A DNA stretch of 64,000 nt from assembly GCA_002929135.1 (NCBI GenBank), contig PESC01000006.1, positions 1-64,000 on the forward strand. Reading direction: 5' to 3'. The notes below the pieces were generated by a model. That model made no database searches, was not told the DNA's origin, and saw only the letters and a program-made list of their open reading frames with translations. The stretch's first letter is position 1, and each line of letters opens with the position of its first letter. The position numbers and the translations under genes are program-made. This document shows, in pieces, positions 48,661-61,338 of the stretch. Origin of the DNA: Methylomonas sp. Its GTDB lineage: Bacteria > Pseudomonadota > Gammaproteobacteria > Methylococcales > Methylomonadaceae.

Positions 48661-51555
48661 ATGAGCCTTTATGCGTCGCTGTCCGGGCAGGGTGTGCATC
48701 TGCCGCCCGCCTTGCAAGCCTGGGCGAACGGTTTTTGCCAGCAGCTCGACGACACACTGTCGCCTGCCGATCGGTCTGCGCTCGATAACCCGGCGTTTCG
48801 TGCTGCGGCGCTGAAAGTCTGTGCCTGTAGCCAGTTTGTTGCCGACAACTGGCTGCGTCATCCGTCTGTACTGACCGATCTCGTCGCCTCGGGCGATTTA
48901 TTTTCCAGCGAATACCGCGCGGCCTATGCCGATGTCATGTCGGGGTGGTCGTGCGAAACCGAGCCGGACATGGCGCGGCACTTGCGGTTATTGCGGCGGC
49001 GGGAAATGCTGCGTATCGCTTGGCGCGATCTGGCGGGTTGGGCCGATCTCGACGAAACCTTGCGCGATTTGACCGCACTGGCAGAAGTCTGCATACAGAC
49101 CGCGCTGGATTTCCTCTACCGCCAGGCCTGCCAACGCTGGGGAACGCCAACACTGGCCGACGGTACGCCGTTCAATCTGGTGGTGCTAGGCATGGGCAAG
49201 CTCGGTGCCTGGGAGCTGAATTATTCATCCGACATCGACCTGATTTTTGCCTATGCCGAAGACGGTTTGTTGACCGGCAAAAAAGACATCAGTCATGGCG
49301 AATTTTTCACCCGCATCTGCCGCTCGCTGGTGAAAATGCTGGATGAAACCACGGTAGACGGTTTCGTGTTTCGTACCGACATCCGACTGCGACCCTTCGG
49401 TGACAGCGGCCCGCTCATCATGAATTTCGACGGCATGGAGCAGTACTACCTGACCCAGGCCCGCGAATGGGAACGCTACGCCATGATTAAAGCCCGGCAG
49501 GTGGCGGGCGACATTGAAACCGGCAAGCTGCTGGTTGACACCATCAAGCCCTTCGTCTACCGCCGCTACCTCGATTACGGCGCCTTCGAGGAGCTGCGCG
49601 CGCTCAAGTTTCAGATTACCCAGGAACTCAGGCGCAAGGATCGCATGGACAACGTCAAACTCGGCCCCGGCGGCATCCGCGAAGTCGAATTCATCGGCCA
49701 GGCCTTCCAGTTGATTCGCGGCGGTCACGAAAGCGCACTGCGCCAGCGCGAGATTCAAGCCGTTCTGCAAACCCTGGGCGAACTGGGTTTGATGACCCAC
49801 GACGACGTGGCGACGCTGCAATTTGCCTACCGCTTTTTGCGCCGCGTCGAAAACCACATTCAGCAATATCAGGACAAACAAACCCACGATTTGCCCAGCG
49901 ATGCCCAGGTGCGGCTGATTCTGGCCTATTCACTGGATTTCGATGACTGGGACAGCTTCAAGCGCGAACTCGATGACATCCGCGCCCGCGTCCATGACAT
50001 TTTCGAGCAGGTGTTTTCACTCAACGACCAAGACAGGCAGCGCATGGCGGCCCGCATGATCTGGCTCGGCGCCGATGATGATCAAGCACTGGACGCTCTG
50101 GCGACCTATGGTTTCAGCGATCCCGTCGCCTGTTTGGCGGCGATGGCCGATTTCAAAACCTCGCATTCAGTCAAACGCATGAGCGCCAAAGGTGCCGGTG
50201 TGCTCGACCGGCTGATGCCGCTGCTGCTCGACAGCCTTGCGGACATCGAGGCCCGCGATGTCACGCTCAAGCGTCTGCTGACCTTGTTCCAGGCCGTGGC
50301 CGGGCGCAGTGTTTATCTGGCGCTGCTGGCGGAAAACCCCGGCGCCCTGGCGCAATTGCTCAAGCTGGCCTCGCTCAGCCCGTGGCTGTGCGACTACCTG
50401 GCGCAGTACCCGATTCTGTTCGACGAACTGCTACACCCCGCCACACTGTACGAACCGCTGAAAAAATCCCAGCTGATTGCCGATCTGACGCGCGAGCTTC
50501 AGGGAGTGGACAGCCAGGACAGTGAGCGCTTGATGGTTGTTCTGCGCCAGTTCAAGCACCAGAACGTGCTGCGTGTTGCGGCGGCCGACCTGATGGGCGT
50601 CATCCCGGTCATGGTGGTCAGCGACTACCTCACCTGGATTGCCGAGGCCATTCTGCACCATGTGCTGCAACGCGCCTGGCACATGCTGGCCGATAGACAC
50701 GGTTGCCCGCCCGGCAGCCACTACGACCCGCCGGGCGGCCTGGCCATCATCGCCTTTGGCAAATTCGGCGGTATCGAACTGGGCTACGGTTCCGATCTGG
50801 ATATGGTCTTCGTTTACGACTGCGACGACGACAATGCTCTCACCGACGGCGACAAACCCATCAACTGCGGCCAGTTTTATCTGCGCCTGGGGCAAAAGAT
50901 TCGCCACATTCTCGACACCAAACTACTGTCCGGCGTGTTGTACGACATTGATCTGCGTTTGCGCCCCAACGGCGACTCCGGCGTGTTGGTCACTCACATC
51001 GCTTCTTACGAACAGTATTTGCGCGAATCGGCCTGGACCTGGGAACACCAGGCACTGGTGCGGGCGCGATTCGTTGCCGGTGATGAAGCGCTGAAACAGG
51101 CATTCGAAGCCATACGCCAACGCATACTGGCGCTGCCGCGCGATGTCGCCGTGCTCAGGCGCGACGTGCGCGACATGCGCCAGAAGATGCGTGACAGCCA
51201 GAAGACAGGCGGCACCCAGGCTAACAAAAACGCCCCGGTGTTCGATCTCAAGCAGGGCAAGGGCGGCATCGCCGACATCGAATTCATCGTGCAATTCGGT
51301 GTCTTGGCCGAAGCTCAGCACAATCCGGCGCTGGCGCAGTGGACCGACAACGTCCGCCTGCTGGAATCGCTGGCAGCACATGGCTTCATGAGCAGCGAAG
51401 ACGCCGCCATGCTGAAGCAGGCCTACTGCCATTACCGCGATGTTGGCCATCATCGGCTATTGCAAGGCGAAAGCGGCGTGACCGACGCTGCCGATTTCGC
51501 CAATTTGCGTCGCGGTGTCGAGGCGTTGTGGAACCAGTTTATCGGCGCGGCGTAA
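48661..51555 (+). CDS. glnE: Glutamine synthetase adenylyltransferase / deadenylase
   Basis: Bifunctional regulator of glutamine synthetase: adenylylates it in nitrogen excess and deadenylylates it in limitation, under PII control. 964 residues, two nucleotidyltransferase domains: MGKLGAWELNYSSDIDLIF near 177-195 and FGKFGGIELGYGSDLDMVF near 698-716, each with the G-S/D-x-D-L-D pattern, plus helical linker domains. The ribosome site is weak. It is 75 bp after SirB2 and is followed by a hairpin (51559-51592). Confidence 0.96.
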   Translation: MSLYASLSGQGVHLPPALQAWANGFCQQLDDTLSPADRSALDNPAFRAAALKVCACSQFVADNWLRHPSVLTDLVASGDLFSSEYRAAYADVMSGWSCETEPDMARHLRLLRRREMLRIAWRDLAGWADLDETLRDLTALAEVCIQTALDFLYRQACQRWGTPTLADGTPFNLVVLGMGKLGAWELNYSSDIDLIFAYAEDGLLTGKKDISHGEFFTRICRSLVKMLDETTVDGFVFRTDIRLRPFGDSGPLIMNFDGMEQYYLTQAREWERYAMIKARQVAGDIETGKLLVDTIKPFVYRRYLDYGAFEELRALKFQITQELRRKDRMDNVKLGPGGIREVEFIGQAFQLIRGGHESALRQREIQAVLQTLGELGLMTHDDVATLQFAYRFLRRVENHIQQYQDKQTHDLPSDAQVRLILAYSLDFDDWDSFKRELDDIRARVHDIFEQVFSLNDQDRQRMAARMIWLGADDDQALDALATYGFSDPVACLAAMADFKTSHSVKRMSAKGAGVLDRLMPLLLDSLADIEARDVTLKRLLTLFQAVAGRSVYLALLAENPGALAQLLKLASLSPWLCDYLAQYPILFDELLHPATLYEPLKKSQLIADLTRELQGVDSQDSERLMVVLRQFKHQNVLRVAAADLMGVIPVMVVSDYLTWIAEAILHHVLQRAWHMLADRHGCPPGSHYDPPGGLAIIAFGKFGGIELGYGSDLDMVFVYDCDDDNALTDGDKPINCGQFYLRLGQKIRHILDTKLLSGVLYDIDLRLRPNGDSGVLVTHIASYEQYLRESAWTWEHQALVRARFVAGDEALKQAFEAIRQRILALPRDVAVLRRDVRDMRQKMRDSQKTGGTQANKNAPVFDLKQGKGGIADIEFIVQFGVLAEAQHNPALAQWTDNVRLLESLAAHGFMSSEDAAMLKQAYCHYRDVGHHRLLQGESGVTDAADFANLRRGVEALWNQFIGAA

Positions 51556-59710: not shown

Positions 59711-60243
59711 CGTAGGGGCTGGGTTGCAACAACATCTGCATTACGTTCCACACCCTCAGGGAAACAGTCTGCAAAGCAAAGTCTGCTGGATTATTTGGAA
59801 AATGTGGTTGGGCAAGTGTCCAGTTTTAGTTGACCAATTACACAGTCCCCTCAAAATGGATAGACGATGAGATCGTTGAACGTCGTGTATTGAATGTGTT
59901 CACGTATTTCTTTAAAATGGCCCGATCAATTTGAGCATTGTGTCTTGCATGACGAGACAGGTGATGAAGCTGATTTTCGATAATGCCATTTAAAGATGGA
60001 TTCCGCCTTCGCGAGAGTTGCAGCGGAACGATTCAACACTAGCTAGCTGCTTGTCTCGGTGGCGAAATAGGTAGGCGCACGAGACTTAAAGTCTGTTTTG
60101 TCAAGCCTTTTCTTCCGCAGACGCTGAGCCGGAAGGCCAGCAGTGGCAACGGTTTGAGAGCATCCGAGATGTAGCATCGTGGCTCGTCTTGGTAGTTAGG
60201 TTCCAACTAGGAACCAGTAGAGAAAAAAGTACAGATCACTCAC
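59711..60243. other. Gene-poor region after pilR
   Basis: About 530 bp, more AT-rich than its neighbours, with no credible ORF. It contains a tRNA-Leu-like remnant (60053-60104) and two small hairpins: CTTCCG/CGGAAG near 60111-60144 and GGTTCC/GGAACC near 60199-60215. With the intron-bearing tRNA and the decayed integrase it looks like the remains of an integration site. Confidence 0.5.
60053..60104 (+). pseudogene. tRNA-Leu(UAA)-like 5'-half remnant
   Basis: GTGGCGAAATAGGTAGGCGC and CGAGACTTAAAGTCTG resemble the D-arm and anticodon arm of a tRNA-Leu(UAA), parallel to the intact gene 190 bp downstream. The anticodon stem pairs for only three bases and no T-arm or CCA follows at the expected distance, so it is not a functional tRNA. 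Confidence 0.4.
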
Positions 60244-60558
60244 GCCCGAGTGGTGAAATTGGTAGACACAAGGGACTTAGACAATTTGAGCCTTCGGCGG
60301 GAAACCCTCGAAGTGACGCCCGTCAAAGTCGGCGAAAGCCCTGGATGCTTCGGCATCCGAGTCAATGCCGAGCCAAGCCCAACCTTCATGGTTGGGAAGG
60401 TGTAGAGAGCAGACGGCGGGCACCTACGGCCGCAAGGCTATGGTGAAGGCGTGCTCCAGACCACGAACAGTGCATCTGCACTGGCGGCGAAAGTCGAAGT
60501 GGTAAGAAAATCCCTCGACCTAACGGTCGTGCCGGTTCGATTCCGGCCTCGGGCACCA
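60244..60558 (+). tRNA. tRNA-Leu(UAA), split by a group I intron
   Basis: Exon 1 is 60244-60278 and exon 2 is 60507-60558; joined they give an 87-nt class II tRNA with encoded CCA. The acceptor GCCCGAG pairs exactly with CTCGGGC, the anticodon stem is AGGGA/TCCCT, and the loop CTTAAAA reads UAA at 34-36. The T-arm is GCCGGTTCGATTCCGGC. The intron follows U34, the same site as in cyanobacterial and plastid tRNA-Leu(UAA). The gene is followed by a strong terminator. Confidence 0.92.
60279..60506 (+). ncRNA. Group I intron (IC3-like) in tRNA-Leu(UAA)
   Basis: A 228-nt intron, without an ORF, beginning after exon U (-1) and ending in the obligatory G. P1 pairs exon CUU with internal GAG, placing a U-G wobble at the 5' splice site. 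P4 pairs TCGGC with GCCGA; P8 is CACC...GGTG (60421-60445); P7, the guanosine-binding helix, is GAGCA (60407-60411) with TGCTC (60452-60456). The Azoarcus tRNA-Ile intron has GACUA/UAGUC at P7, a compensated change. GAAGGTGTAGAGA and GGGAAACC are shared with that intron. Predicted to self-splice. Confidence 0.9.
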
Positions 60559-60563
60559 TCCAG

Positions 60564-60595
60564 AGCCGCCCCTGTTTATGCAGGAGCGGCTTTTT
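60564..60595 (+). terminator. Intrinsic terminator of tRNA-Leu gene
   Basis: AGCCGC-C-CCTG ... CAGG-A-GCGGCT followed by TTTTT, starting five bases after the CCA end. A strong classical terminator. Confidence 0.85.
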
Positions 60596-60770
60596 CATTT
60601 CACCATGACCCAGCACCAAATTCGTTGGACTACGCCGAAGCTAGATACGGCAGGTTTATCAATGGCTTAGGTTGGTTCAGCGTATGCCGATGCTTTCCGA
60701 AACCTGATCTGACTTCTCTGCTGGTGGCCCCTATGAGGCTCTTGGGAATCAGGTCTTTCCGAGGAGAAAA

Positions 60771-61338
60771 ATCAAGTTCACCAAGTCCGCAGTCGATGCG
60801 GCACAACCTCAGGCGCAGGCCGTCGAACTTCGGGACACGCTGGTGCCCGGCTTCCTGTGCAAGGTTAGGCAAGCTGTTTCGGCGACTGGAGCACATCGAG
60901 GCCGAGGGCCTGGAGAACTACGTCATCCCGCTGGCGATCCGCCTGCAATTCGAGTTCGCTAGTCGGCGATCCGAAATCGTGACACTCCAATGGGAGTGGG
61001 TGGACCTGGACAACCGCCGCGTGGTCTGGCCGGACAGCAAGACTGGCGGCATGTCCAAGCCCATCAATGAACAAGCCTATCGGCTGCTCTCGACGGTGCC
61101 GCGGCACGAAGGCATCCCCTACGTGCTGCCGTCCTCGCGCCATCCCGGCAAGCACCTGACCACGGACGAGTATTACAACGGCTGGAGCTGCGCCCTCAAG
61201 GCGGCGGGCGCCACGCACGGCATCCGCCAGCGTTCGACCACCGACATTGCCGACTCGGGCATCCCGGTCAAGGTCGGCATGGCGCTAACAGCGCACAAGA
61301 CCGTGGCGATGTTCATGCGCTACGTCCACACCGGTTGA
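60771..61338 (+). pseudogene. Decayed phage/island tyrosine-recombinase integrase
   Basis: Two pieces in different frames. The N-terminal piece (60771 to about 60866) reads IKFTKSAVDAAQPQAQ...LVPGFLCKV, the start of a P4-type integrase, and follows AGGAG, but the expected ATG is ATC. After a deletion of the central part, the C-terminal catalytic domain continues in another frame to 61338 with Arg in FASRRSEI, Lys in DSKTGG, HGIRQRST, AHKTVAMF and the final Tyr in RYVHTG all intact. Integrases of this type insert at tRNA genes and this one lies just beyond tRNA-Leu, so it marks a lost genomic island. Not functional as it stands. Confidence 0.85.

Follow-up and report, generated by a model that had tools for sequence, protein, structure and literature searches.

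Group I introns are known in the tRNA-Leu(UAA) genes of cyanobacteria and plastids, they are also carried by Azoarcus tRNA-Ile(CAU) and Agrobacterium tRNA-Arg, and the small introns of this type in bacterial tRNA genes are usually regarded as neutral passengers. The position of the cyanobacterial tRNA-Leu(UAA) intron, which we take to be U34, is the one occupied in the gene described here. Gammaproteobacterial group I introns in tRNA-Leu(UAA) have been reported for Thiomargarita and Beggiatoa (PMC4853749).

Some mobile elements break a tRNA gene and bring a copy of their own. Guerrero-Bustamante and Hatfull (2024; PMC10865867) described such a case as tRNA-dependent lysogeny: phages bring with them the tRNA whose host gene they split at a core in the anticodon loop. 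For Gordonia phage Daredevil the same paper reports a tRNA-Lys-TTT that is not rebuilt, no tRNA encoded by the phage itself, and clear plaques (PMC10865867).

The window analysed here, a 64-kb stretch of Methylomonas DNA, contains a tRNA-Leu(UAA) gene interrupted by a group I intron and, upstream of it, one half of a second such gene. The explanation that best accommodates the window and its relatives, to which we give a probability of about 0.78, is that an ICE splits the tRNA-Leu(UAA) gene of its host and carries an intron-split replacement, that the window holds a remnant of such an element, and that the intron would both splice from the transcript and, perhaps, shield the replacement from integration.

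The intron-bearing tRNA gene of the window

With introns allowed, ARAGORN reports a tRNA-Leu(taa) at 60244-60558, i(36,228), whose exons, once joined, can be folded into a tRNA-Leu(UAA) of 87 nt; without introns it returns zero tRNAs across the whole window, so elements that carry such genes may be under-counted. When the boundaries are set by group I rules (U at the 3' end of the exon, G at the 3' end of the intron), exon 1 occupies 60244-60278 and ends at U34, the intron occupies 60279-60506, and exon 2, in which CCA is encoded, occupies 60507-60558, all on the forward strand. The first-pass annotation had held that the tRNA is complete only after removal of 228 nt following U34, had drawn the same exon and intron limits, and had suggested tRNA prediction on the joined exons as a check; both statements are confirmed. 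A terminator-like hairpin with a T tract, read from the sequence, follows on the forward strand at 60563-60595, and a comparable hairpin lies 3' of the tRNA in most of 19 related loci. The same ARAGORN run also proposed a tRNA-Leu(caa) with a 703-nt intron at 50513-51309, which is doubtful, lying within a coding gene, and was disregarded.

A survey of tRNA-Leu(UAA) loci in related genomes, also suggested at first pass, was carried out by blast against 60 relatives and the window's own genome; 46 of these 61 gave matches, the exon blocks were contiguous in many, and the interior of the intron was matched in only one of the 60 relatives, G044. Exon 1 is 97% identical to the tRNA-Leu of another family within the order, and exon 2 is 96% identical to the tRNA-Leu of G049 and G043, where both exon blocks are contiguous at 96-97% identity, whereas the exons are ~83-85% identical to those of congeners (~85% for exon 2). 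G044, which belongs to the window's order, has on its contig 82 (L064, 401-708) a related intron whose exons read as tRNA-Arg(CCU) by eye and as Leu aag in ARAGORN.

A second intact tRNA-Leu(UAA), which the first-pass annotation had named as a point against its reading, was not found in the window's own assembly, a 63-contig draft of 95.86% completeness. The tRNA list of this assembly is also without Asp, Trp and Ile(GAT), so the missing second copy is only moderate evidence.

By its sequence and its covarying fold, the insert at 60279-60506 is a group I intron, and at 228 nt it is too short for a homing-endonuclease gene. The covariance-model check proposed at first pass gave a divided result: Rfam RF00028 aligns P1 to P9 at 29.5 bits (E 2e-5, in a search of 901 bases), but this is below the gathering score of 50, a detection threshold rather than a structural feature, at which the window intron is unlisted, and its place is likewise not listed in the RF00028 profile search of its own genome.

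For covariation analysis, 154 script-delimited introns were reduced to 51, one per group of ~90% similarity; the removal of three with doubtful ends (L237, L292, L301) and the addition of one Bradyrhizobium plasmid intron left 49 aligned sequences. Across these, 90.8% of cells are paired in the P2-P9 structure and 30-43% in slid controls, a comparison that favours the structure because it was drawn on the window's own sequence. Double-sided changes occur at 45 of the 60 pairs, against 30.6 (sd 2.0) in shuffles, with 0 of 500 shuffles as high. P3, formed by 60318-60324 and 60415-60421, is paired in 93.6% of cells with double changes at 5 of its 7 pairs, and P7, formed by GAGCA at 60407-60411 and TGCTC at 60452-60456, is paired in 49/49 (all strands being read in the forward direction). 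Two pairs of P7 are GC/CG in 34 sequences, the window among this type, and CG/UA in 15, which is a compensated change inside the intron family. All 49 sequences have the internal GAG to which exon CUU pairs, and the window intron ends in GGTAAG. Covariation thus supports a P2-P9 fold with a P3/P7 pseudoknot; the helices recognised at first pass, P7 included, are borne out across the family, and the exon U before the intron, the G at its end and the pairing of CUU with GAG are present in the window.

Severed native genes and element ends

Upstream of the intron-bearing gene, at approximately 60053-60093 on the forward strand, lies the 5' half of a native-type tRNA-Leu(UAA) that was cut in the anticodon loop; 60055-60094 is 95% identical (38/40) to positions 3-42 of the congeners' intact gene. 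The half ends in an att core, CTTAAAGTC at 60085-60093 (forward strand), one base different from the CTTAAAATC seen elsewhere; the core occupies the same place in 29 named loci and 8 leader-survey loci, and elsewhere it recurs as a direct repeat at the far end. The leader that runs from the core to the replacement tRNA, 60094-60243 on the same strand, is read as the element end.

Blast of the window against fetched loci placed this leader within a unit of 521-557 bp that is common to 17 of them at 79-84% identity and comprises the half tRNA, the leader, the intron-bearing tRNA and, in most, the terminator. Because the leader is conserved and the half tRNA varies from one host to the next, we assign the leader to the element and the half to the host; in two Cupriavidus plasmids, truncated copies start at the core/leader junction. 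In the window, a complete foreign-type tRNA gene, intron included, adjoins this element end. The lateral movement suggested by the first-pass annotation is therefore supported, but the intron did not invade a resident gene, since the native type survives only as a 5' half.

No native-type 3' half was found elsewhere in the window's assembly and TrbI gave no match at E 0.01 in its genome (an empty result that shows nothing by itself), so the window's element is reconstructed from its left end alone. Beside the neighbouring regulator gene in 27 congener loci, a search that reached at most 1.5 kb turned up no tRNA, so these loci do not confirm that place as the ancestral position of the native gene. 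To judge from its sequence, the window holds a decayed remnant that retains only the left end of an element and the replacement tRNA.

A second element appears to have left its own trace. At 60768-61332 (forward strand) there is a Tn4371-type tyrosine integrase remnant with an internal deletion (PF00589; 91% over 33 aa and 77% over 164 aa to the Enterobacter asburiae integrase), and the T tract of the tRNA's terminator contains, at 60591-60598 on the forward strand, the Tn4371-type attachment sequence TTTTTCAT, with the first 17 bases of primer intFor1 readable at 60593-60609, both as given in PMC2789088. The conserved flank of the integrase fragment starts at this TTTTTCAT, and the fragment points into the region expected to hold the body of the first element. 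Its orientation and the attachment sequence in the terminator lead us to read the fragment as a second insertion and to reject it as the bringer of the tRNA. In the window and in three plasmids (L190, L191 and L192, near 8000), a hairpin is followed, by eye, by a T tract that immediately adjoins the end of a Tn4371-type integrase; intrinsic terminators may be preferred sites for this integrase family.

At least 117 close relatives were recovered when genomes were scanned for the core of the intron subfamily, and CTTAAAATC was found upstream of the intron core in 29 of the 117 loci listed. Among the matches listed, a tRNA-Leu 5' half ends in the core at 28 of these 29, and trbI or trbG lies downstream at 19. 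Three of the other ten have <400 bp of downstream sequence and seven have 1.5-6.5 kb, so not every element need be such an ICE. The leaders of 11 of the 28 fall outside the exact 20-nt end pattern (as read from the listed loci), which indicates that the layout is not restricted to a single leader type. The exception among the 29 is L323, where the core is present with no upstream tRNA half; together with L354 it belongs to G076, where an intact tRNA-Leu(UAA) and an extra 3' half are present besides, and this copy is possibly a secondary-site insertion.

The layout was also recovered by a search blind to the intron, in which a 20-nt element-end pattern was used with its reversed form as control. 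Within the window's class it matched 1 of 369 genomes, that of the window itself; in the order of Lysobacter concretionis it matched 4 of 398, and in that of Ottowia beijingensis 3 of 399. The reversed pattern had no match in any of these three sets. Four of the eight genomes were new, three were known from the intron scan and one was that of the window, and each of the eight loci is flanked upstream by a native half and downstream by an intron-bearing tRNA-Leu(UAA).

At the opposite side of these elements, a 3'-half pattern of tRNA-Leu(UAA), applied to 16 genomes with such elements, found nine places in eight genomes. Six of the nine are element ends, in which element sequence is followed by the core TTAAAATC and then by the native 3' half, and at five of these six an integrase in the same locus is 66-68% identical (aa) to the Enterobacter asburiae Tn4371-type enzyme. 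Two of the 16 genomes, G066 and G076 (L346, L348), keep an intact second tRNA-Leu(UAA), and G076 has one further 3' half; these are exceptions to a simple replacement picture. A far-end search of 396 genomes with one mismatch allowed gave four exact matches, each with a native 3' half next to it and an integrase alongside, while the control matched once (G613). One genome (G793) has a far end with no matching left end in its assembly, and another (G759) has a left end and an unmatched far-end pattern. A tyrosine integrase is present in the same locus at 8 of the 9 far ends seen.

The native 5' and 3' halves rejoin as a tRNA-Leu(UAA) in every genome tried (6/6, and 2/2 later, or 8/8). A single contig of Lysobacter concretionis has the two cores at a distance of 41,027 bp, and in G502 the distance is ~43.7 kb. 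For the Ottowia beijingensis and L330 copies, Pfam searches identified TrbI, CagX (TrbG-like), VirB8 and TrbL; for the Lysobacter copy they identified a TrbE-like protein, a TraG-like coupling protein, LysR, a ParA-like protein, efflux-type cargo and an arm-binding tyrosine integrase. In the eight genomes, then, the native tRNA is split and is rebuilt at neither junction, as in tRNA-dependent integration; in the window this can be seen for the left half. The severed halves, their rejoining and the trb neighbours together point to an ICE that splits tRNA-Leu(UAA) and carries a replacement.

Sequence comparison in the relatives shows that the ICE inserts into the host tRNA-Leu(UAA) at a 9-bp anticodon-loop core, CTTAAAATC, which splits the gene, and that it brings a complete intron-bearing tRNA-Leu(UAA) ~170 bp inside its trb-side end, with the group I intron placed exactly within the core (CTT, intron, AAAATC). 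The intron is predicted to self-splice after transcription, and the replacement would then supply the UUA decoding lost with the broken native gene. The window holds a decayed version of that trb-side end, made up of the native 5' half, the element end, the intron-bearing tRNA, the terminator and the second, Tn4371-type integrase fragment; the element would have decayed and the tRNA been kept, presumably because it was needed.

A possible role for the intron

A less certain part of this picture is that the intron hides the replacement tRNA from the integrase. The core is absent from the unspliced replacement and present in the spliced one at all 22 readable loci, the window included (23 were given for this test, one of them truncated at the end of its contig); since the copies are related by descent, these do not amount to 22 independent trials. 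In Uliginosibacterium (L266/L349), the native site that was used and the spliced replacement are identical for 29 nt across the anticodon arm, from which it follows that an intron-free replacement would be a target of a kind known to be in use. With its core split by the intron at the DNA level, the replacement might offer no target to the element's own integrase or to those of its relatives, and splicing would restore a normal anticodon loop in the RNA. We regard it as an even bet that the intron serves its carrier in this manner, and that the arrangement has perhaps arisen twice, once in ICEs that carry tRNA-Leu(UAA) and once in a Gordonia phage, there with tRNA-Lys(TTT).

That phage is Daredevil. 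At 1340-1651 of its locus (L068) there is a tRNA-Lys(TTT) with a 238-nt group I intron relative at the same position, after U34; its exons, once spliced, adopt a tRNA-Lys fold, and 167 bp upstream of the intron-split tRNA, near the integrase, stands the unsplit core GGACTTTTAATCCGC. The clear plaques of this phage argue that its tRNA-Lys copy is insufficient, and the T-loop and 3' end of that tRNA look unusual, so the Daredevil layout is a lead and not a proof. Among 84 viral loci, Daredevil (two records of one phage) is the only one with its spliced junction within 3 kb, where shuffles expect 0.34. Because ~20 of the 84 viral boundaries were misplaced by ARAGORN, the 76 Leu-type viral loci were re-checked for CTTAAAATC, with one match, nearly 3 kb off; a cyanobacterial core pattern had no match in viral contigs. 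A general rule by which phage tRNA introns shield a nearby core was rejected, as it applies to no phage but Daredevil among the 84 loci.

The intron core itself is widespread in viruses, being found in at least 120 viral stretches (L070-L189). For the 120 listed, ARAGORN calls tRNA-Leu(UAA) in 49, none in 28 and various others in the rest, including 20 apparent misreadings as tRNA-Tyr(ata) of what looks like tRNA-Leu(UAA). An uncultured huge phage (LR756511.1; L069, 903-1602) has a 700-nt intron of the same family, missed by ARAGORN with introns of up to 600 nt, whose exons read as tRNA-Leu(UAA) by rule and which by eye holds an HNH-like reading frame; it is a candidate homing form.

The distribution of the subfamily in bacteria bears directly on the leading alternative, which is that the intron is a neutral passenger drawn from intron-rich tRNA-Leu(UAA) donors and that only the replacement of a broken tRNA matters. 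Among the matches listed, ARAGORN assigned the 117 loci to tRNA-Leu(UAA) in 76 cases, tRNA-Leu(CAA) in 35 and tRNA-Phe in three, with three uncalled; the boundaries of the three tRNA-Phe calls look misplaced. The hosts named in 80 listed record titles are mostly beta- and gammaproteobacteria, with a few others. The first-pass annotation had limited known hosts to cyanobacterial tRNA-Leu, Azoarcus tRNA-Ile and Agrobacterium tRNA-Arg, a list that proves too short, since at least 111 relatives lie in tRNA-Leu(UAA) or tRNA-Leu(CAA), mostly of beta- and gammaproteobacteria. Many of these genes have no severed gene upstream: the core is missing there from 51 of the 80 UAA-type loci among the matches listed, a few of which have too little upstream sequence. 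Since this is so, and since phage introns generally have no unsplit core nearby, shielding cannot explain all such introns.

The intron may indeed be a passenger of a captured tRNA, given that the element copies are related by descent and that a short core may not suffice for self-targeting, tyrosine integrases also requiring flanking arm sequences. What tells against this view is that the intron is kept in all 22 readable element copies, that Daredevil has the same layout around a different tRNA, with its unsplit core 167 bp away, and that the element-borne introns are scattered on the intron tree. This tree has 121 rows, with L237, L292 and L301 (doubtful boundaries) and L001, L138 and L181 (very long) left out. 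The introns nearest to that of the window, both element-borne, are L357, which lies in a tRNA-Leu(UAA) (94/87), and then L242 (92/85); a first tree with narrower element-borne labels (exact-leader loci only) joined the window with L357 (98/88). In the 121-row tree the window falls in no starred set, and the bootstrap was unsettled in both trees. The element-borne introns require 13 label changes on the 121-row tree, at least four of them forced by starred branches, so they are not one group; either the link between intron and element has persisted or been formed again more than once, or tRNAs have moved out of elements. With evidence on both sides, a mere passenger seems to us a serious possibility that nonetheless falls somewhat short of probable.

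Several further observations concern where these introns travel. At the 35 tRNA-Leu(CAA) loci among the matches listed (e.g. L246, L260, L278), C34 stands at the 5' splice site, and the usual U.G there appears as C-G, opposite an invariant G. An Escherichia coli plasmid (CP042640.1; L001, 3995-4295) carries, without annotation, what reads as a tRNA-Leu(UAA) gene containing a 215-nt intron relative (ARAGORN gives Stop, tta), placed between two IS6-family transposase genes and adjoining aac(3)-IId in the one record opened; it may be a marker of the chromosome that donated the captured region. Intron relatives turn up in 1278 plasmid records, and 625 of the 5426 complete E. coli genomes have them as well.

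It could also be supposed that the intron-bearing gene of the window is a dead relic and that the decoding falls to another tRNA-Leu(UAA), which the draft assembly lacks. The 63 contigs lack several expected tRNAs, the Rfam score is under the gathering cut-off, and 2 of the 16 genomes with such elements hold a second intact copy; even so, the exons of the window's gene are intact and the core helices pair although the adjacent integrase has decayed, and no other copy was found in the assembly, all of which makes a relic improbable. The weakest proposal, that a mobile intron homed into an ordinary host tRNA-Leu(UAA) beside an unrelated pseudogene half, can draw on an insertion site known for such introns and on the HNH-like frame of LR756511, by which homing forms may exist, yet it is rejected as highly improbable by the foreign origin of the exons (96-97% to another family, ~83-85% to congeners) and by the severed half, which is of congener type with the same end base as at 28 other loci and whose native counterpart lies at the far end of two-ended elements in eight genomes.

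Comparison with known systems

The elements described here resemble the Tn4371-family ICEs (Ryan, 2009; PMC2789088) in their trb-type transfer genes, their TraG-like, ParA-like and LysR proteins and, in the relatives, an integrase at 66-68% aa identity. By eye, the element end here also resembles the reverse of the Tn4371 right-end primer RE1 (PMC2789088). Tn4371 elements insert at TTTTTCAT or variants of it, whereas the relatives here use CTTAAAATC, in the tRNA-Leu(UAA) anticodon loop, and bring a tRNA gene with them; the word 'tRNA' is absent from the main text of PMC2789088.

The intron resides in the same tRNA as other bacterial tRNA-Leu(UAA) introns, but here it occurs together with a mobile element and the native gene that was severed, and its subfamily is mostly beta- and gammaproteobacterial. 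The Azoarcus tRNA-Ile(CAU) intron is likewise small and in a bacterial tRNA gene, with a different host tRNA. An intron that lies inside the integration sequence of its own carrier, in the replacement for a gene which that carrier destroys, would have a concrete and testable benefit. The elements may also provide one route for the scatter of intron-bearing tRNA-Leu genes across beta- and gammaproteobacteria and, as the window suggests, can leave a likely essential tRNA behind when they decay.

In a search confined to PMC, no earlier account of an intron-split replacement tRNA in an ICE was found. In tRNA-dependent lysogeny the element carries the same tRNA that it splits, as is the case for tRNA-Leu(UAA) in 8 of 8 end-pattern loci here. 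The described cases are actinobacterial phages that use tRNA-Lys, Ile2 or Leu-CAA, in contrast to a proteobacterial conjugative element that uses tRNA-Leu(UAA) (PMC10865867). In that paper, 'intron' appears only in a reference title, while the replacement here is split by a group I intron (PMC10865867). The closest precedent is thus tRNA-dependent lysogeny, to which the present elements add a conjugative setting, extending tRNA-dependent integration beyond phages, and an intron within the replacement tRNA.
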